From: Chelatococcus sambhunathii
GTDB lineage: Bacteria; Pseudomonadota; Alphaproteobacteria; Rhizobiales; Methylopilaceae
Assembly: GCA_031316315.1 (NCBI GenBank)
Contig: JADBEO010000009.1
Location: 1 to 64,000 of the forward strand
Direction: 5' to 3'
Length of the DNA: 64,000 bases
Shown piece by piece: positions 42,693 through 52,057 of this stretch. Within the stretch, counting starts at the first letter, position 1. Each line of letters starts with the position of its first letter. The notes beneath the pieces are model-generated. The model was not told where the DNA came from and made no database searches. It saw nothing but the letters and a program-made list of their open reading frames with translations. The position numbers were made by a program, and so were the translations under genes.

Positions 42693-45600
42693 TCAGTAGT
42701 CCCACTCGACGGCGACGCCCGCCGACGTGTTGCCGGCTGCGCCGGCCATCCCTTGGGCCTTGACGTTCTTGGTGAGGTCGATGTCGACCGTCACCCCCGT
42801 GTTCTCCGGCGTCGTTCCCGATCTTACGCCCAGATAGATGTTGTCGGAAATATACTTTCCGATCCCGAGCCCGGCCCCGCCGCCGTCGCCCGCGGCGATG
42901 TCGAGCGTGTCGACGCCGAGCCCCTTTCTGAGGCCCTCGAGCGGCCCCCCGCCGGCTCCGCCGACGCCGCTGTACTGCGCGACCGCCTGCGCGATGGTCA
43001 GCGCCTGGCTGGTGGAGAGCTCCCCGGACGACTTGTTGAACAGCAGGCGGGAGAGCACCTCGTCCTGCGGCACGACGGGGTTGGAGGTGAACTCGACCTT
43101 CGGTCGCGATGCGTTGCCGGTGATGACGACCTGCGCGGTGAGCCCCGTCGCCGGCGTCTCGGCGAGGAAGTCGAGCGTCGGGTCGAGGTCGCCCGCGAAG
43201 CCGACCTGCCCGCGCGTGAAGCTCAGCCGCTTGCCGAGCACCGTGATCGAGCTTCGGCCGGAGCGGAGGTCGAACGCCCCGATCGGCACGGGCTTCGCCG
43301 ATGTCCCGGTGATCTTGATCTGGCCGCCGGCCTCCGCCTGCATGCCCATGCCGCGGATGAAGATCCGGTTCTCGGCCTGGACGTCGATGTTCAGCGTCGC
43401 GAGAAAGGCCTCCTTCTCGCTGCCACCCTTGCCCTTGCCGGCGTTCAGAACTTTCGTCTGCCGCACGACCGCCGCCGGCGCGTTCCTGTGCCTAACTTCG
43501 GGGAGCGGCGTATAGGCGGCCGGGATGCGATCGGGAATCTGGATTTCGATCGAGCGCGTGCGGATCGTACCGCTGACGACCGGGCGCTGCGCCAGCGGGC
43601 CCTCGAGCCTGAGGTCGGCGTCAGTGATGGCGGTCACGATGTCGGTGCCGATCACCTCGGCGTTTGAGGCCTTGAAGTTGATCTGGCCTGGAAAGCCGCG
43701 CGCCGGGTCGACAGCCACCCGTCCCGAGCCCGACAGCGAGCCGCCGTTGCGGGTCGTGGCGCGGAAGCTCGACACGTCGATGTTCGTCCCGTTGGCGGTG
43801 ACGGACGCCGCCATGCCCTTCAGCTGCAGGTTCGCCGCGCGGTTGAAGTAGGACGCGTTGGCGAGATTGCCCGAGCCGTTGATGCGCGGGCTCGAGGTCG
43901 CGCCGCCGACTTTGACGTCGAAATTCACAGTCCCGTCGACCCGGTCGCCGGAGACCGAGAGCGTGTCGTTCAGGAAGGCGAGCGGCGCGCGACCCGCGAC
44001 CTTGAGATCGAGGTCGCCCGCGCCGAGCGGGACCGAGCCGTTTGCAGTCACGCGCATGCCGCTCGGGGCGGTCACCACCGTGTCGGTGACGACGCGCTTG
44101 CCTTCGAGCCGACCCTTGGAATCGATCGCGGCCGCCGGAACGCCGGCGCCGCGCGTCGCCTGGGTGGAAAGGCCCATGACCTTGAGCGTGTAGGTTCCTG
44201 CCGGCGCGGCGATCGTGCCGCCGATCTTGGCGTCGCCCTGCAGCGTGCCGTTCGCGCCGAGCCCGGGCGAGAAGCCGTTGGCGAGCGACAGCGGAACGCT
44301 GCGGATCTGCACCGCGACGTCGAGCGACCCCTGGCCGAGCGGCGCGGAGCCCGTGGCGACGACGCGCATGCCGCCTGCGCCGGTGGCGATGGTCTCGGTG
44401 GTCACGCGTCCACCGCCGAGACCACCCTTCGCGACGATCTGGAGCGGGGGCACGCCTTTGGCCGCAGCCGCGGTCAGGCCCGTCACCCGCAGGTCGTAGT
44501 TGCCGGCCGGGGCCTTGATCGGTCCCGTCACCCTGGCGTTTCCGGCCAGCTTGCCCGTCAGCCCGAGCCCCGGCGAGAAACCGTTCGCGATGGCGAGCGG
44601 GACTTCGGCGATGTCGACCGCCATGTCGAGATCGCCCTGTCCGATCGGCGCGGCCCCCCTGGCGGTGAGGCGCACCCCGCCGCCGCCCGTGACGGCGGTG
44701 TCGGTCGTCACCCGCTGGCCTTCCATCGTCCCCTTGGAGACGATCTGGAGAGCCGGGACGCCCTTGGCCTGCGCGGCCGTCAGATCCTCGACCGTCAGAT
44801 CGTAAGTCCCCAGCGGCGCAGTCACTTGGCCCGAGACCCTCACGTCGCCCCTGAGCCTGCCGCCGAGGCCCAGCGAGGGAGCGAAGGCGTTGGCGACGGC
44901 GAGCGGGACCTCGCGGATCGCGACCGCCATGTCGATGTCGCCCTTGCCGAGTGGCGCGGAGCCCTTGGCGGTGAGGTTGACGCCTCCGCCGCCGGTCAGA
45001 ACCGTATCGGTCGTCACCCGGTCGCCTTCGAGCGCCCCCTTGGTGGCGATCTCGAGCGCCGGCACGCCTTTCGCCTGCGCCGCAGTCAGGCCGCTGACGC
45101 TCAGATCGTAGGTCCCACGCGGCGCCGTCAGCGACCCCGCCACCTTGGCGTCCCCGCGCAAAATCCCGGCAAGTCCGAGCTCCGGCTTGAAGGCGTTGGC
45201 GAGTGCGAGCGGTGCCTCGCGGATCGTCACCGCCATGTCAAGGTCGCCCTCGCCGATCGGCGCGGAGCCTTTGGCCGACAGCTGGATCCCGCCGCCGCCG
45301 GTGACGCTGGTGTCGGTGGTGACGCGGGTTCCCTCGAGCGTGCCTTTCGTCGCGATCTGGAGCGCCGGCACGCCGATCGCGGACTTCGCGGTCAGGTCGG
45401 CGATGGAGAGGTCGTAGGTTCCCTGCGGGACCGAGACCGGGCCGTTGATCTTCGCGTCGCCGCGCAGCGTTCCGGCGAGGCCGAGTTCCGGCTTGAAACC
45501 GTTGGCGAGCGCGAGCGGGAGCTCCCGGATCGCGACCGCCATGTCGAGGTCGCCCTCGCCGATCGGCGCGGAGCCCTTCGCCGTCACGCTGATCCCGCCC

Positions 45601-48600
45601 TGGCCGGTGACCGAGGCGTCCGTGGTGACGCGCTCTCCCAGCAGATCGCCCTTGGCCGCGACCTGGAGCGGCGGGACGGACTTGGCCTGCGCCGTGACGA
45701 GGTCGGCGACGGTCAGGTTGTAGGACCCGACGGGTCGCTTCGCCGGCCCCTTGAGGGTGACGTCGCCGCGCATGACGCCGCCGAGCCCCAAATCCGGCTT
45801 CACCTCGTTCGCCAGCGTGAGCGGCAGCTCGCGGATCGTCACGGCGAGGTCGAGGTTGCCGTCGCCGAGCGGCGCCGAGCCCTTGGCGAAGACGTTGAGG
45901 CCGCCGGCGCCGGTCACCGAGGTGTCGGTCGTCACCCGCGTCCCCTGCAGCTCGCCGCGCGCCAGCACCTGCAGCGGCGGCGCGTCCTTGGCCTTGGCGG
46001 TCTTCAGCCCGGAGACGGTGAGGTCGTAGGCCCCGCGCGGAGTCTTCACGGGACCGGAAATCTTCGCGGTCCCCTGCGCCACGCCGTCGAGGCCGAGGTC
46101 GGGCGCGAAGGCGTTGGCGAGCGCGAGCGGGAAGGATTTCAGGCCGATCGTCATGTTGACGTCGCCCTCGCCGAGCGGGGCGGAGCCCTTGGCGGTCGCC
46201 TCGACGCCGCCCCCGCCGGTGATAAGCGCGTCGGTCGTGACCGACTTCGGCTGCAGCTCGCCGCGGGCGACAACGTTCAGCGCCGGCACGCCGCGCGCGC
46301 GCGCCGAGGTGAGGTCGGAGACGGTGAGGTCATAGGTCCCGTTCGGCGTCTTGACTGGCCCGGTGATGCGGGCCGTGCCGCGCAGGCCGCCGCCGAGCGC
46401 GGCCTCCGGCAGGAAGGCGTCGGCGAGCTTGAGCGGCAGGTCGCGGATCGCGACCGTCATGTCGAGGTCGCCGTCGCCGAGCGGCGCGACGCCGTTGGCC
46501 GCGACGTCGATGCCGCCGCCGACGACCGTCGTCTGCGTCGTCACGCTGCGGCCCTGCAGGGCGCCGCGCGTGTCGATCTGCAGCGCCGGCAGTCCCTTCA
46601 GCGGCGCGCCGGCGAGCCCGGTGACCCTGAGGTTGTAGTTGCCCCGCGGGGCGTCGACCGGGCCGCTGACGCGCACGTCGCCGCGGGCCATGCCGGCGAG
46701 GGCGAGGTCCGGAGCGAAGGCGTTGGCGAGGGCGAGCGGCAGTTCGCGGATCGCGACCGCGAGATCGATGTCGCCGGCGTTCTGCGCGATCGGAACGGAG
46801 CCCTCGATCGCAAAGCCAAGACCCCCGCCGCCGGAGATGCGGGCGTCGGTGGTGACGCGCTTGCCCTGCAGCTCGCCCTTGGCGTCCAGCAGAATCGGCG
46901 GAACGCCCCGTGCATTGGTGGAGGTGAAGTCGAACACCTTCGCCCGGTAGGTCCCGTTCGGCTCCCGCACCGAGCCGGTGACGCGCGCGTCGGCCTCCAT
47001 CCGCCCGCCGAAGCCGAGCTCCGGCTGGACCACGTTGGCGAGCGCGAGCGGGAGGTTGCGGACGCGGACGTTCATGTCGAGGTCGCCGTCGCCAAGCGGC
47101 GCGGAGCCGTCGATCACGGCGTCGATGCCGTTCGCGCCGGTGACGGTCGTGGTCGTGCCGACGCGGCCGCCCTCGAGCATGCCCTTCGTCACGACGGTGA
47201 GCGGCGGGACCCTGGCGTTGCGCAGCTTCTCGACGGTCAGCTCCGCGACCGAGAGGTTGAAGGCGACCTTCGGGTCGTCCGCCCGGCCCGTGACGAGCGC
47301 GTCGCCGAACGCGGCGCCGGAGAGGCCGAGGCCCGGCGTGAAGGCGTTGCCGAGCGCAAGCGGCAGGTCGCGCAGGCCGAGGTTCAGGTTCAGTTGCTCG
47401 CCGGCTTCGCCGGAGATGTCGAGCACGCCGCCCTCGCCCGACCGCAGCGAGAACCCCGTGATCTGCACGGTCTTGTCGGCGAGCCGGATCTCGGCCGGGG
47501 CGAGCCCGGTAAGAGAGGCGGTCTTGCCGCCCCCGGCGAGGTCGAGCTTGCGGAGCTCGATGCGCGTCTCGCGCGGCGCGTAGACGACGCGGGCGGCGGC
47601 CTTGGCGGAGGAGGCGAGCGCCTTCGATTCCATGTCCAAATCGACATCCATACCGTCCGGCGCGCCCTTGGCGATGACCGCGAGCGAATCGATCGCCTGA
47701 CCGCCGGCGGCGATCGAGCGGCCGTTGACGGTGCCGTCGAGGGTCAGCTTGCCGGCCGGATCGACGGCGGTGACGTCGGCGTCGATCGAGCCGACCGTCA
47801 CGCCGGGCGCGGCGATGTCCGAGCCCTGCAGCTTCACGACGGCGCGCTGCACGCCGCCCTCGGACGACAGCGCGACGTCGCCGCTGACGCGGCCGGCGAG
47901 TTCGGTGAGCGCCAGCGCGCCGATCTCGGACAGGTCCGGCGAGGCGAAGGCGAGCTTGCCATCGGCGAGGCCTTTCGGCGTGACCGCGACGTCGCCGGTC
48001 ACGGTCGTCTGCGCGATCGCAAGGTCGAGCCCCTCGATCCGCCGCAGCTCGCCGTCCGAGCGCAGCCGGCCGCCGCCCTTCACCGCCTTGCCGTCGAGCG
48101 AGCCTGCGAGTGCGAGGGTCCCGCCGATCGCCCCGGTCACATCCGTTGCGTCGACGCTGACCTCGATGTCCTTGAGCGTCTTGTCCAGCGCCTTGCCATC
48201 GGGGATCGAGACCAGGGCCTTGAGGCCGAGATCATCGAGCTTGCCGGTGAGATCCGCCGCAACCTTGGCGGCCCCCGCCGCGCGCGGGTCGAGCTTCGAC
48301 AGATCGTCGATCTCGGCGAGGATCCTGGCGTCCGCCCGCGCGTCTGTGACAGCGCCGTTCGCGGCGACGACGATGTGCTCGCCCCGCGCATCGAAGTCGC
48401 GGAAGACGATGGAGCCGTCCTCGGTCCGCGTGACGCCGCCCTGGATCGAGAGGTCGCCGCCGGTCAGCGCGTCGACCTGAGCGACGCCCGTCGCAAGGCC
48501 GGAACCGGTGCCGTTCGCGGAGAGGTTCAGCCGCGACATGTCGAAGGCGACGTCGAGGTCGGCGGCGAGATCGAGCGCTCCGGCGAGCGGCATGCCGACG

Positions 48601-50105
48601 GCGGGAGCGAGCGTCGAGAGGTCGGCCGCGTTGACTGTCGCCTTGCCCTTCGCCGCGTCCGGGGACGCCTGGCCGACGAAGCTCGCTTTGACGTCGTCGA
48701 GGCTGACGTCGGCCTTGCGGATGTCGGCCTCGCCCTTGAGGCTGCTTGTGGCGTCGAGCGCCAGCGTAAACTTGCGGCCGCCCGCGAACAGCCGGTCGTC
48801 GGCGAACTTGACGCCGTCCGCCTCGCCGGTCACGAGCGCCTTCACCTTGGTCGTGTCCTGCGACAGCGGACCATCTGGCGTCGCCGTCAGCTCGACCTTC
48901 GCCGTCTGGAACGAGCCCTGTGGAACGACGAGCCCGCCGGCGTCGGCGCTGGCGCGGATCTCCGGATGCTCGATCGGCCCCTTCGCCGTGCCGCGCGCGC
49001 TGGCCGAAACCCACGACACGCCCGGCAGCAGCTTTGCGAAGCGCGCGAAGTCGCCGGCCTTCAGATCATAGGAGACGTCCAGCGTCTCGGCGTCCGCGTC
49101 GACGGCGCCCCGCGCGTTCAACCGGGCCGCTGCGACGTCCACGTCCGCGCGAACGATCTGGATCGGCCCCTTGTCCGGAACGACCGCCTCGGCCGAGACC
49201 TTGCTCATGCCGTCGACAAGATCGGCGACCGTCGGCTGGACGAGGGCGGCGAGGGTTCCGTTGAGGTCGAGCGTAACGCGCCGTCCCTCCCCTTCCCGCC
49301 GGACCTCGCCGGCGCCGTCGATCCTGCCTTGCGTCCCGGCGGTCACCACGAGCTGGGTCCGCAGCGCGTCGAGCGTGCCTGCGCCGTCCATGCCGACCTC
49401 GACCGGGGGAAGGCCCGGGATGTTCGCCATGCGCGCGACGAGGCCGCCGGCCGGCTCCGAGCCGCGCAGCGAGATCTCGACGCCGTTGGTCGCCGGGACG
49501 AACCGGGCGCGGCCGGCGAACTGGCCCTTCGTGCCGTCGGTGCGGCGGACGTCGAATTCGGCGGAGACGCCGTCCTTGGGCTGGCGGACGGTCGCCGCGG
49601 CGGTCGCAGCAAGGCGCGCGGGCGTCCCGATAACCGGTGCGGCCAGGCCGAGGTCCGCGAGCGCGAACCTCTCGAGCTTGATCTCGATCGGCAACTGCGG
49701 GAACAGCGGCGCGTTGGGATCCGGCGGCGGCGCCGGCTCGTCGGCTTCCGGATAGTCGGGCTGGCGGGCGACCTCGACCTTGCCGACATCGACCAGATTG
49801 ACGGTGAGCTTGCGGGAATAGAGCTCGAGCGGCGACCAGACGACGCGCGCGCGGTCGACCGTCAGCCACTCGCCCTTGCGGTCCGCTAGCCTCACGTCCT
49901 TCAGGGTCAGGTCGTAGGGAAACGAGCCCTCGATGTCGCCGATGGAGATCTTGGTGTCGTCGGAGCTCGCATATTTCGACGCGACCGAGGCGATCGTCGA
50001 GAGGCCGTGCGCCGTGGTGAGGTAGGCGAAGGCGGCGGCCAGCACGACCACCGGGATCAGCAGCAGGATCCCAAAGACGATCAGGGCGCGCTTGAGGATC
50101 GCCAT
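42693..50105 (-). CDS. tamB: TamB-like translocation and assembly module protein, repeat-expanded
   Basis: A 2470-aa inner-membrane-anchored periplasmic protein, about 1000 residues longer than usual TamB. The N-terminus is one transmembrane helix (ALIVFGILLLIPVVVLAAAFAYL) followed by the AsmA-like region. The C-terminal DUF490 domain is intact: GRSSITVLGKRLSFTRGQVG, LDFLAETPATGLTAQVVITG, PVVPQDEVLSRLLFNKSSGE, then a terminal AVEWDY. Between residues about 900 and 2050 are eleven 100-102-aa repeats. TamB with TamA helps insert some outer-membrane proteins and is now thought to form a lipid-carrying groove between membranes. The ATG shares one nucleotide with the tamA TGA. Confidence 0.95.
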   Translation of the reverse strand: MAILKRALIVFGILLLIPVVVLAAAFAYLTTAHGLSTIASVASKYASSDDTKISIGDIEGSFPYDLTLKDVRLADRKGEWLTVDRARVVWSPLELYSRKLTVNLVDVGKVEVARQPDYPEADEPAPPPDPNAPLFPQLPIEIKLERFALADLGLAAPVIGTPARLAATAAATVRQPKDGVSAEFDVRRTDGTKGQFAGRARFVPATNGVEISLRGSEPAGGLVARMANIPGLPPVEVGMDGAGTLDALRTQLVVTAGTQGRIDGAGEVRREGEGRRVTLDLNGTLAALVQPTVADLVDGMSKVSAEAVVPDKGPIQIVRADVDVAAARLNARGAVDADAETLDVSYDLKAGDFARFAKLLPGVSWVSASARGTAKGPIEHPEIRASADAGGLVVPQGSFQTAKVELTATPDGPLSQDTTKVKALVTGEADGVKFADDRLFAGGRKFTLALDATSSLKGEADIRKADVSLDDVKASFVGQASPDAAKGKATVNAADLSTLAPAVGMPLAGALDLAADLDVAFDMSRLNLSANGTGSGLATGVAQVDALTGGDLSIQGGVTRTEDGSIVFRDFDARGEHIVVAANGAVTDARADARILAEIDDLSKLDPRAAGAAKVAADLTGKLDDLGLKALVSIPDGKALDKTLKDIEVSVDATDVTGAIGGTLALAGSLDGKAVKGGGRLRSDGELRRIEGLDLAIAQTTVTGDVAVTPKGLADGKLAFASPDLSEIGALALTELAGRVSGDVALSSEGGVQRAVVKLQGSDIAAPGVTVGSIDADVTAVDPAGKLTLDGTVNGRSIAAGGQAIDSLAVIAKGAPDGMDVDLDMESKALASSAKAAARVVYAPRETRIELRKLDLAGGGKTASLTGLAPAEIRLADKTVQITGFSLRSGEGGVLDISGEAGEQLNLNLGLRDLPLALGNAFTPGLGLSGAAFGDALVTGRADDPKVAFNLSVAELTVEKLRNARVPPLTVVTKGMLEGGRVGTTTTVTGANGIDAVIDGSAPLGDGDLDMNVRVRNLPLALANVVQPELGFGGRMEADARVTGSVREPNGTYRAKVFDFTSTNARGVPPILLDAKGELQGKRVTTDARISGGGGLGFAIEGSVPIAQNAGDIDLAVAIRELPLALANAFAPDLALAGMARGDVRVSGPVDAPRGNYNLRVTGLAGAPLKGLPALQIDTRGALQGRSVTTQTTVVGGGIDVAANGVAPLGDGDLDMTVAIRDLPLKLADAFLPEAALGGGLRGTARITGPVKTPNGTYDLTVSDLTSARARGVPALNVVARGELQPKSVTTDALITGGGGVEATAKGSAPLGEGDVNMTIGLKSFPLALANAFAPDLGLDGVAQGTAKISGPVKTPRGAYDLTVSGLKTAKAKDAPPLQVLARGELQGTRVTTDTSVTGAGGLNVFAKGSAPLGDGNLDLAVTIRELPLTLANEVKPDLGLGGVMRGDVTLKGPAKRPVGSYNLTVADLVTAQAKSVPPLQVAAKGDLLGERVTTDASVTGQGGISVTAKGSAPIGEGDLDMAVAIRELPLALANGFKPELGLAGTLRGDAKINGPVSVPQGTYDLSIADLTAKSAIGVPALQIATKGTLEGTRVTTDTSVTGGGGIQLSAKGSAPIGEGDLDMAVTIREAPLALANAFKPELGLAGILRGDAKVAGSLTAPRGTYDLSVSGLTAAQAKGVPALEIATKGALEGDRVTTDTVLTGGGGVNLTAKGSAPLGKGDIDMAVAIREVPLAVANAFAPSLGLGGRLRGDVRVSGQVTAPLGTYDLTVEDLTAAQAKGVPALQIVSKGTMEGQRVTTDTAVTGGGGVRLTARGAAPIGQGDLDMAVDIAEVPLAIANGFSPGLGLTGKLAGNARVTGPIKAPAGNYDLRVTGLTAAAAKGVPPLQIVAKGGLGGGRVTTETIATGAGGMRVVATGSAPLGQGSLDVAVQIRSVPLSLANGFSPGLGANGTLQGDAKIGGTIAAPAGTYTLKVMGLSTQATRGAGVPAAAIDSKGRLEGKRVVTDTVVTAPSGMRVTANGSVPLGAGDLDLKVAGRAPLAFLNDTLSVSGDRVDGTVNFDVKVGGATSSPRINGSGNLANASYFNRAANLQLKGMAASVTANGTNIDVSSFRATTRNGGSLSGSGRVAVDPARGFPGQINFKASNAEVIGTDIVTAITDADLRLEGPLAQRPVVSGTIRTRSIEIQIPDRIPAAYTPLPEVRHRNAPAAVVRQTKVLNAGKGKGGSEKEAFLATLNIDVQAENRIFIRGMGMQAEAGGQIKITGTSAKPVPIGAFDLRSGRSSITVLGKRLSFTRGQVGFAGDLDPTLDFLAETPATGLTAQVVITGNASRPKVEFTSNPVVPQDEVLSRLLFNKSSGELSTSQALTIAQAVAQYSGVGGAGGGPLEGLRKGLGVDTLDIAAGDGGGAGLGIGKYISDNIYLGVRSGTTPENTGVTVDIDLTKNVKAQGMAGAAGNTSAGVAVEWDY
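43950..47380 (-). repeat. tandem 100-102-codon repeats in tamB (11 copies plus one degenerate)
   Basis: Each unit runs LPLALANAFAPDLGLxG, then xxGxAxxxGPVxxPxGTYDL, a segment ending in GVPALQI, then TKGxLEGxRVTTDTxVTGGGG and KGSAPLGxGDLDMAVAIRE. Spacing between equivalent points is 300-306 bp (for example 44258, 44564, 44864). The most membrane-distal copy near 43980 has decayed to APLAFLNDT. Copies differ at many residues but stay in frame, suggesting old, selected duplications. Confidence 0.92.
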
Positions 50106-52057
50106 CAGAACGACTGCCCGATCGAGACGTAGAACGCCACGCGCGGATCGTTCCTCGTGCGGCCCATCACCGGCGTCGCGACGTCGAAGCGGATCGGGCC
50201 GATGCTGGTATAGTAGCGCAGGCCGACGCCGGCGCCGACGCGGATGTCCTCCTTGAAGTCGGGATAGGTCTTGTCGAAGGCGGCGCCCGCGTCGACGAAC
50301 GGCACCACCCCGATCGTGTCGGTCACCTTGATCCGCGCCTCGACCGAGCTCTCCAGCAGACTGCGGCCGCCGAAGGGCTGGTCGTCGTTGCAGATCAGCG
50401 CCTTGTCGGGCGGCGGGAACTTCTCTTTGCAGGACGGGCTCGCGCTTTGATAGGCGAAGCCGCGCACCGAGCCGCCGCCGCCCGCGAAGAAGCGCCGGTT
50501 CGCCGGCACGTCCTCGGTCGAGCTCGGCCCGACGATCGAGCCCGCGCCGATCTTGCCGGCGAGGATGAAGCGGCCGTCCTCGTCGAAGGCGAAGTAGGAC
50601 GAGATCTGCGCCTTGAAGATGCTGAGCGACTTCTGCTCGCCCTGCGCATTGTAATAAGGCGCGGCCGCGAGCGTCAGCTTCACGCCCTCGCTCGGATTGA
50701 GCTTGTTGTCCGTGTTGTCGAAGGTCGCGCTCATCGGCAGGCCGACCAGCAGGTAGTTCTTCTCGCCGATCGTGTCGCGGATGTCGGAGGCTTCGACCTC
50801 GACGCCGCCCTGGATCGACAGATCGCTGCTGATGCGCTGGCGCAGCGCGACCTGGCCGCGGATGCCGTCGCGCCAGTAGGCGTCGGTGCGCTCGCGCAGC
50901 GCCTCGATCTCGACGAGCAGGTCGGTGAAGCCGGTGATGACGCCCGGTTTCTCGAACTGAGCGCGCAGCTGGTACTCATACTCGGCCGGCTTGTTGGTGA
51001 TCAGCCGCCCGACGCCCGCGTCGAGCCTCAGCTTCTCGGCGCCGCCGAACAGGTTGCGGTGGCCCCAATAGGCGTTGACGCCGGCGCCGTCGATCGAATC
51101 CCACTTGGCCGCGGCACCGACATAGCGGAACTTCTTCTCCTCGACCTCGATGGCGATCGGCACACGACCGGAGGCGTCCGGCTTCTCCGCCTCGCGGATA
51201 CGGATGGAGGAGAACACGTCGAGCTTGGCGATCTCCTCGCGGAGTTCGCGCACCTTCTCCGGATCGTAACGGTCGCCCGGCTTGAAGGGGACGCGGCCGC
51301 GCACGACCCGCGGATCGACCTCCTTGGTTCCGGAGACGGTCACCTCGCCGAACGGCGCTTGCGGGCCGGCGGCGACCTTGATGACGAGATCGAGCTGCTT
51401 GCGGGTATGGTCCGCCGTCGCGTCGCGGCCCTTGGTGGCGGCGAAGGGGTAGCCGTCGGCGCGGAGCTGGTCGACGATCTTGCCTTCGGCGGCGAAGATC
51501 ACCGCGGACGGAGCCGGCTTGCCGGGCTCTAAGCCGGCCTTGCGGAGGTTGAAGTCGACGCGCGAAGCCGGGGCGTCCAGCGGCTGCACGCGCACGGAAC
51601 CGAAGGTGAAGACCGGTCCCTGATGGACGACCACGACGACGGGGACAGGCTTGCGCGAGCGTTGCGCCGCGTCCGGCGCGCTCTGAGAGGTCGCCGAGAC
51701 GCCCGCGACCGTGACGTCGACGACGGCGCCGTAGCGACCCGTCGCGGACAGCGCCGCCGAAATACGCTCGATATCGGCCTTCGCGCGGCCGACGAGGCCT
51801 GGAGGACCCGGCGGCGGCTCCTTCTCGAGCGTCTTCAGCGAAGAGGTGTCGGTCGCGATCTTCTCGACGTCCTTGTCGCCTCCGTCGACCTGGAACGAGG
51901 TGGCGTAGGACACGCCGGGGACGGCGGCAGCTGCGGCAGGAGGCGGGCCGTCCGGCGCCGGCTGGGCGTGAGCGGCGGCGACAAGCGCGCAAACGGCTCC
52001 GACCGCCAACAATCGTGGCGACGGAAAGCCGTTCCTGAGCCTACGCAACGCCGCCAT
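50105..52057 (-). CDS. tamA: TamA-like outer membrane protein (BamA/Omp85 family)
   Basis: A 650-aa Omp85 protein. A signal peptide (LLAVGAVCALVAAAHAQPAPDG) precedes POTRA-like domains at about 90-340 (GPVFTFGSVRVQPLDAPAS, APFGEVTVSGTKEVDPRVVRGRVPF) and a 16-strand barrel. The barrel has the Omp85 loop motif RRFFAGGGGSVRGFAYQS (VRGF), GGRSLLESSVEARIKV, RVGAGVGLRYYTSIGPIRFD and a terminal Phe. With TamB it forms the translocation and assembly module. It is the first gene of the tamAB unit and is divergent in reading direction from nothing nearby; merR ends 80 bp upstream on the same strand. Confidence 0.94.
   Translation of the reverse strand: MAALRRLRNGFPSPRLLAVGAVCALVAAAHAQPAPDGPPPAAAAAVPGVSYATSFQVDGGDKDVEKIATDTSSLKTLEKEPPPGPPGLVGRAKADIERISAALSATGRYGAVVDVTVAGVSATSQSAPDAAQRSRKPVPVVVVVHQGPVFTFGSVRVQPLDAPASRVDFNLRKAGLEPGKPAPSAVIFAAEGKIVDQLRADGYPFAATKGRDATADHTRKQLDLVIKVAAGPQAPFGEVTVSGTKEVDPRVVRGRVPFKPGDRYDPEKVRELREEIAKLDVFSSIRIREAEKPDASGRVPIAIEVEEKKFRYVGAAAKWDSIDGAGVNAYWGHRNLFGGAEKLRLDAGVGRLITNKPAEYEYQLRAQFEKPGVITGFTDLLVEIEALRERTDAYWRDGIRGQVALRQRISSDLSIQGGVEVEASDIRDTIGEKNYLLVGLPMSATFDNTDNKLNPSEGVKLTLAAAPYYNAQGEQKSLSIFKAQISSYFAFDEDGRFILAGKIGAGSIVGPSSTEDVPANRRFFAGGGGSVRGFAYQSASPSCKEKFPPPDKALICNDDQPFGGRSLLESSVEARIKVTDTIGVVPFVDAGAAFDKTYPDFKEDIRVGAGVGLRYYTSIGPIRFDVATPVMGRTRNDPRVAFYVSIGQSF

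Follow-up and report, generated by a model that had tools for sequence, protein, structure and literature searches.

The window analysed here is a stretch of 64,000 nucleotides from Chelatococcus sambhunathii (contig JADBEO010000009.1, assembly GCA_031316315.1), and its subject is tamB, the product of which, TamB, would be an inner-membrane-anchored, TamA-coupled protein of the beta-taco type and a predicted lipid carrier. The TamB encoded here reaches 2470 amino acids (aa) and contains eleven tandem units of about 100 residues, which are akin to a module that TamB itself possesses, vary in number among close relatives and evolve under purifying selection. The likely explanation is that an otherwise ordinary TamB has gained groove length from within, through tandem copying of its own six-strand module, and that the surplus coils or tilts in a periplasm of normal width. 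Throughout the text, "the genus" means Methylopila/Hansschlegelia, represented by 13 genomes, among them that of the window (G000; 4.10 Mb, 100 contigs, 99.3% complete).

The array and its repeating unit

The array consists of eleven in-frame tandem units covering aa 914-2039 (positions 43989-47366), each of 101-104 aa (303-312 bp, most commonly 306), with pairwise amino acid identities of 39-73%. When TamB is matched against itself, the best ungapped score is 2251, at an offset of 102, compared with 40 for one shuffle of the protein. At the DNA level, the units are 57-73% identical to each other, and the longest exact repeat is 29 bp. A preliminary description had proposed eleven diverged but in-frame repeats between an N-terminal anchor and the DUF490 domain of an unusually long TamB, and this picture is confirmed. 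The features of the gene are the following:

43989..44297, minus strand: unit 11, aa 1937-2039 (hmmsearch, tree); groups with the last units of seven other genus members (support 100/100)
44298..44603, minus strand: unit 10, aa 1835-1936 (hmmsearch; in structure model)
44604..44909, minus strand: unit 9, aa 1733-1834 (hmmsearch; in structure model)
44910..45215, minus strand: unit 8, aa 1631-1732 (hmmsearch; in structure model)
45216..45521, minus strand: unit 7, aa 1529-1630 (hmmsearch; in structure model)
45522..45827, minus strand: unit 6, aa 1427-1528 (hmmsearch; in structure model)
45828..46133, minus strand: unit 5, aa 1325-1426 (hmmsearch)
46134..46439, minus strand: unit 4, aa 1223-1324 (hmmsearch)
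46440..46742, minus strand: unit 3, aa 1122-1222 (hmmsearch)
46743..47054, minus strand: unit 2, aa 1018-1121 (hmmsearch)
47055..47366, minus strand: unit 1, aa 914-1017 (hmmsearch)
43662..43988, minus strand: diverged module leading into the C-terminal domain, aa 2040-2148 (hhalign: probability of 67, E 5.1e-5)
42699..43766, minus strand: PF04357 (DUF490) C-terminal domain, aa 2114-2469 (Pfam E 9.4e-51)
47367..50015, minus strand: N-terminal part of TamB, aa 31-913, its last 87 aa or so unit-like (sequence and profile comparison)
50016..50105, minus strand: N-terminal hydrophobic signal anchor, aa 1-30 (read from the translation)
42693..50105, minus strand: tamB as a whole, 2470 aa, ATG start (open reading frame; PF04357, E 9.4e-51)
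50105..52057, minus strand: tamA, 650 aa, POTRA and Omp85 domains, directly upstream of tamB (open reading frame and Pfam)

The identity of the protein is confirmed by the PF04357 match, which scores 173.7 bits against a cut-off of 22.4, and by the adjacent tamA, the stop codon of which shares one base with the tamB start (TGATG). In the translation, residues 7-29 are hydrophobic and free of charged residues; an anchor-type start is likewise present in the 12 unbroken tamB genes of the genus and in the first piece of the split gene of G004. The C-terminus reads ...VEWDY, and thus the last residue is aromatic. Antisense to most of tamB, there is also an open reading frame of 1687 aa (44826-49889, plus strand), which most likely arises as a side effect of GC-rich codons and of the repeated sequence.

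The expected size of TamB had been put at 1200-1500 aa, and the protein of the window does exceed it. Among the best 150 matches of a phylum-wide TamB search, the 149 from outside the genus have open frames, measured from stop to stop, of 1384 aa at the median and 2205 aa at most.

The structure of the unit was modelled with AlphaFold2 on units 6-10, using an alignment of seven sequences drawn from the window and L016-L018 only. The model has a mean predicted local distance difference test score (pLDDT) of 90.1 and a predicted template modelling score (pTM) of 0.74. Every modelled unit is predicted to form a helix of 6-7 residues and six strands, with linker-free joins between the units. One face of the sheet is predicted to be hydrophobic: in 99 units from 12 genus genomes, hydrophobic and polar residues alternate along the strands, and none of 5000 within-strand shuffles gave an alternation as strong. 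The signal is strong in five strands and weak in the second. A similar alternation along strands is described for a crystallized beta-taco fragment of the Escherichia coli protein (PMC5719984). The repeats therefore appear as groove-type modules, as had been supposed, rather than as a domain of another kind.

The origin of the unit can be traced within TamB itself. In the same family, five genomes lie outside the genus; two of them have a TamB match, and each of these proteins (1305 and about 1281 aa) holds one unit, directly before the C-terminal domain, while a TamB match is absent from the other three. Moreover, profile comparison recognizes a unit-like stretch at about aa 827-913, directly N-terminal to the array (probability 74.5, E 2.7e-5); this stretch and the diverged module that leads into the C-terminal domain outscore all other TamB regions. 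The top solved-structure match of the unit profile is again a TamB (9xdc_B, 1259 aa; E 0.0013, covering 40 of 104 positions). Given the single copy ahead of DUF490 in the two relatives and the likeness of the flanks to the unit, the unit is, by sequence kinship, TamB's own module; a foreign inserted domain was rejected on the same grounds. In view of the predicted fold, the alternation and this origin, the array most likely lengthens the beta-taco groove.

Copy number, unit order and selection

Units were counted in relatives with a profile built from those of the window, and matches below set bit and length limits were excluded. All 13 genus genomes have a TamB match, and the 12 unbroken genes form a ladder of 4, 4, 4, 6, 6, 9, 10, 11, 11, 11, 11 and 12 units. 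Four units are present in G002, G008 and G009 (1753 aa each), six in G003 (1956 aa) and G011 (1957 aa), nine in G006 (2262 aa), ten in G005 (2368 aa), eleven in the window's genome (2470 aa), G001 (2466 aa), G007 (2480 aa) and G010 (2470 aa), and twelve in G012 (2571 aa). In G004 (L024), tamB is broken up among several frames, which together carry 10 units, one of them cut in two. This is a one-contig assembly with 88% completeness, and its frame breaks are probably sequencing indels. The region before the array measures 911-913 aa in 11 of the 12 unbroken genes (922 in G007), and 430-433 aa follow the last unit match. As the flanks are nearly constant, TamB length changes by whole units; equal length in all relatives, which had been raised as a check on the idea of an enlarged protein, is not what is found. 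In a tree of the flanks, two clades appear, by unit number {4,4,4},{6,6} and {11; 9,10; 12,(11,(11,11))}.

The order of the units is conserved in part of the genus. By best match, the units of the window pair one-to-one and in the same order with those of G010 and G007 (11 of 11 each). In G001, 10 of 11 units stand at the matching position; its unit 2 is nearest to window unit 8 and clusters in the tree with unit 2 of G005 and G006, not with unit 2 of the window. G012 is collinear with the window, with one extra unit between positions 2 and 3. G005 and G006 map partly onto the window units, and the 4- and 6-unit species hardly do so, with the exception of the last unit. The claim that the length is maintained thus stands in part: four eleven-unit species keep 10-11 of 11 units in order, but the number ranges from 4 to 12 within the genus and falls to one in the two relatives from other genera.

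The unit tree comprised 124 units and 104 columns, with 34 of 121 inner branches left open. It omits G002, G004, G007, G009, G010, G038, G075, G197, G217, G230, G350 and G359, as well as the degenerate last modules of G318, G157, G106 and G070. An alignment of overlapping five-unit windows was discarded because the aligner shifted rows by whole units. For the eight genus members in the tree, the last units form one clade (support 100/100) and the first units another (97/91), so that the growth of the array appears internal.

The units are under purifying selection, as indicated by the ratio of nonsynonymous to synonymous substitution rates (dN/dS). Compared with the window, the array gives 0.10 (G010), 0.22 (G007) and 0.41 (G001), in each case between the values of the N-terminal part (0.14, 0.29 and 0.46) and of the C-terminal part (0.06, 0.12 and 0.27); the G001 figures are rough, with dS near 0.7. 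Within the 4-unit species, the array ratio is low (0.07 and 0.05).

A wider survey covered 397 genomes of the order, with at most 12 candidates scored per genome, and 228 of them have a unit match. In 168 of the 397, G014, G015 and G017 among them, no TamB match reached the threshold; many members of the order seem to lack TamB or to have one too divergent for recognition. Outside the genus, five or more unit matches occur in 14 genomes (G026, G038, G075, G106, G131, G157, G177, G181, G197, G214, G230, G261, G318 and G350), and the remaining out-of-genus genomes have one to three among the matches listed. Match counts do not equal the number of units in a TamB array: G181 has eight matches and seven units in its TamB frame, and G131 has eight and three. 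The five matches of G026 are unconfirmed, as the longest frame examined held none, and the last match of g57 and of G318 is a degenerate module inside DUF490.

A further series lies in g24 (family f22; G261 and relatives), with an array period of 107 aa, compared with 101 aa in g57 and G318. Its 80 genomes have 1 match (26 genomes, two of which are less than 90% complete), 2 (1 genome), 7 (28), 8 (19), 9 (4) or 10 (2), and none of the 80 has 3-6. In g57, 8 genomes have 4-7 matches. If the last unit is set aside, the units of the g24 arrays are monophyletic in the unit tree (98/95); that last unit clusters with the lone units of the short-form G384 and of G296 (98/86). Consequently, the g24 array most likely arose apart from that of the genus, as far as the tree can tell. 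A branch with support of 72/83, present in 70% of 200 bootstrap trees, has the genus units on one side, and this split between the genus and g24 leaves a single origin of all arrays in the order unsupported. The arrays of f16/g57, f22/g123 and some others fall together in an older group of the tree, and thus need not be independent of one another.

Other enlargements of TamB were also encountered. G535 (L095), from another order of the class, has a period-100 array made from a different TamB stretch, to which the unit profile gives only 9.6 bits. No such array was present in four other long TamB frames, namely G543, G648 and G633 (outside the order) and G601 (another period). The G601 frame (L096) matches itself at an offset of 171 with a score of 236, possibly reflecting one internal duplication. 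In G111 and G217 (L067, L073), TamB measures about 2016 aa and has two unit-like modules 622 aa apart, which is a different kind of enlargement.

Periplasm width and the competing explanations

In the favoured explanation, the duplicated module would be the one just ahead of DUF490, and the copies would stack edge to edge into one continuous groove. Copy number would shift by unequal recombination between units. The extra length would be absorbed by coiling, tilting or bending, and the longer groove could hold more lipids while reaching TamA with slack.

The scale of this length can be estimated from E. coli. The plain AlphaFold model of E. coli TamB measures 17.8 nm and was judged too short to reach TamA, and the protein stretched in simulation reaches 24.6 nm (PMC11014939), while the distance between the membranes is given as 30-32 nm at high osmolarity (PMC8824477). 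By proportion to these TamB models (1259 aa), each unit would add roughly 1.4-2.0 nm; the TamB proteins of the genus (1753-2571 aa) would then measure about 25-36 nm coiled or 34-50 nm stretched. The spacing between strands is 0.48 nm, and six strands would thus give up to about 2.9 nm per unit.

Several points weigh against this explanation. A Foldseek search with the five-unit model returned no close fold, the best match being the middle, beta-sheet region of ApoB100 (E 2.1e-4, TM-score 0.23). A second model, of units 9-11 with DUF490, has low confidence in the C-terminal half (mean pLDDT 54.4) and gave no usable match in a fold search, and the continuity of the groove is a prediction on a fragment. 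Although the periplasmic part of E. coli TamB is reported to bind phosphatidylethanolamine and phosphatidylglycerol (PMC12800296), lipid transport by the protein of the window is putative. In the comparison of G003 with G011, the array has a slightly higher dN/dS (0.39) than the N-terminal part (0.35), and evolution is faster in units 1 and 2 than in the other units (ratio of nonsynonymous to synonymous differences, pN/pS, of 0.84 and 0.81 against G001). Finally, purifying selection on the units does not establish selection on their number.

The main rival on why the number varies is a neutral ratchet in which unequal recombination adds and removes units, whole modules are tolerated since they keep the register, and the extra length is idle. 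It is possible, but less likely than the favoured explanation. Near relatives differ by single units (9 and 10, 11 and 12), G012 has an additional unit after position 2, the second units of G001 and of the window are not counterparts, and folding alone could explain the selection on the units. On the other hand, the matching order of 10-11 of 11 units across four eleven-unit species suggests that the array does not drift freely, and so does the gap between 1-2 and 7-10 matches among the 80 g24 genomes. A more tentative possibility, which we would not rate highly, is that module number is a selected and tunable trait with discrete length states (1-2 or 7-10 matches in g24; 4, 6 or 9-12 units in the genus), largely uncoupled from periplasm width. 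The length would then be set by lipid-holding capacity or by the coiling needed to pass through the wall.

Alternatively, TamB could act as a ruler, its length matching a periplasm or a specialized contact zone that is wider in species with long TamB. The phylogenetic structure of copy number fits such a relation, and so does the concentration of 47 of the 53 long-form g24 genomes at 7-8 matches, as a matched length would give. Nevertheless, this is unlikely: the range from 4 to 12 units would demand a change of the gap by about 11-23 nm among close relatives, and in 11 of the 13 genus genomes the open frame of another long AsmA-type protein measures 1198-1272 aa (the exceptions are G003, with 1402, and G010, with 828 and a gene that seems split over two contigs). 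Since this protein is of ordinary size in the same genomes, a matching wider periplasm is not favoured, and the wider periplasm that the preliminary description listed among its options has so far found no support; a coiled or tilted bridge, or additional surface for lipids, may apply instead. In the seven genomes, with 4 to 10 units, where the TamA frame stays inside the fetched stretch, it measures 665-677 aa, compared with 650 aa for TamA in the window. A search for YhdP is a weak control, because all its matches fall below the family cut-off; frames measure 1017-1344 aa in nine genomes and 720 in G004, the window's genome and G010 have only a weak match in a 582-aa frame, and G006 has no match. 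None of the other proteins tested lengthens with TamB.

It is decidedly unlikely that the array serves mainly for docking, with its polar faces or helices binding a partner (cell wall, TamA, chaperones or clients) and the lengthening of the groove as a side effect. A helix of the LPLALAN type and polar stretches such as VTTDT and GSAP do recur in the units, and they would face outwards; however, the strongest conservation pattern is the hydrophobic face, the charge of the array is not unusual (lysine plus arginine 9.1%, aspartate plus glutamate 8.9%), and a Pfam scan of TamB at E 0.1 yielded PF04357 alone and no second domain. An assembly error, another concern raised at the outset, is very unlikely. 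The window's genome is a draft of 100 contigs, but its units are too different for collapse or expansion (at most 73% DNA identity, with no exact repeat beyond 29 bp), the same order is seen in G010 and in G007, a one-contig assembly, as well as for 10 of 11 units in G001, and arrays are also present in the few-contig genomes G007 (eleven units) and G008 (two contigs, four units).

Comparison with known systems

The TamB of the window resembles that of E. coli and most Pseudomonadota in its anchor, its DUF490 domain with an aromatic end, its adjacency to tamA and, by prediction, a hydrophobic-faced region of the beta-taco type. An aromatic last residue has been presented as a rule for TamB (Heinz 2015), and an N-terminal Chorein-N-like domain has been described (PMC6791001). 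It differs from the usual TamB in its eleven alike units and in a length that the others, among the matches listed, usually fall far short of. The Pfam family PF04357 is not defined by length. YhdP, YdbH and AsmA belong to the same superfamily and have a presumed role in phospholipid flow (PMC8593681, in part); unlike TamB, the long AsmA-type protein encoded in these genomes shows no lengthening. In the open-licence literature, judged by titles and the beginnings of abstracts, no treatment of tandem module number in TamB was found, which is weak evidence of absence.

A parallel in principle is offered by the eukaryotic VPS13 and ATG2 proteins of the repeating beta groove (RBG) type, in which a hydrophobic groove of repeated modules is reported to have grown by duplication in the middle of the protein (PMC7613979). 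The TamB array of the genus similarly keeps counterparts of its first and last units. However, the RBG module has five strands, and most RBG duplications are placed before the last eukaryotic common ancestor (PMC7613979), whereas the TamB unit is modelled with six strands and a short helix, and its copy number varies within one genus. The comparison would therefore be one of working principle and not of membership.

A natural series of lengths bears on the question of how TamB spans the periplasm. For eukaryotic bridges, a match between module number and contact width has been suggested and is described as yet to be studied (PMC7613979). Close relatives with 4, 6, 9, 10, 11 and 12 modules and nearly constant flanks provide such a series of bridge lengths, and g24 offers short and long forms of TamB in one further genus. 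This series could help to decide whether the length of a lipid bridge acts as a ruler, a reservoir or slack.

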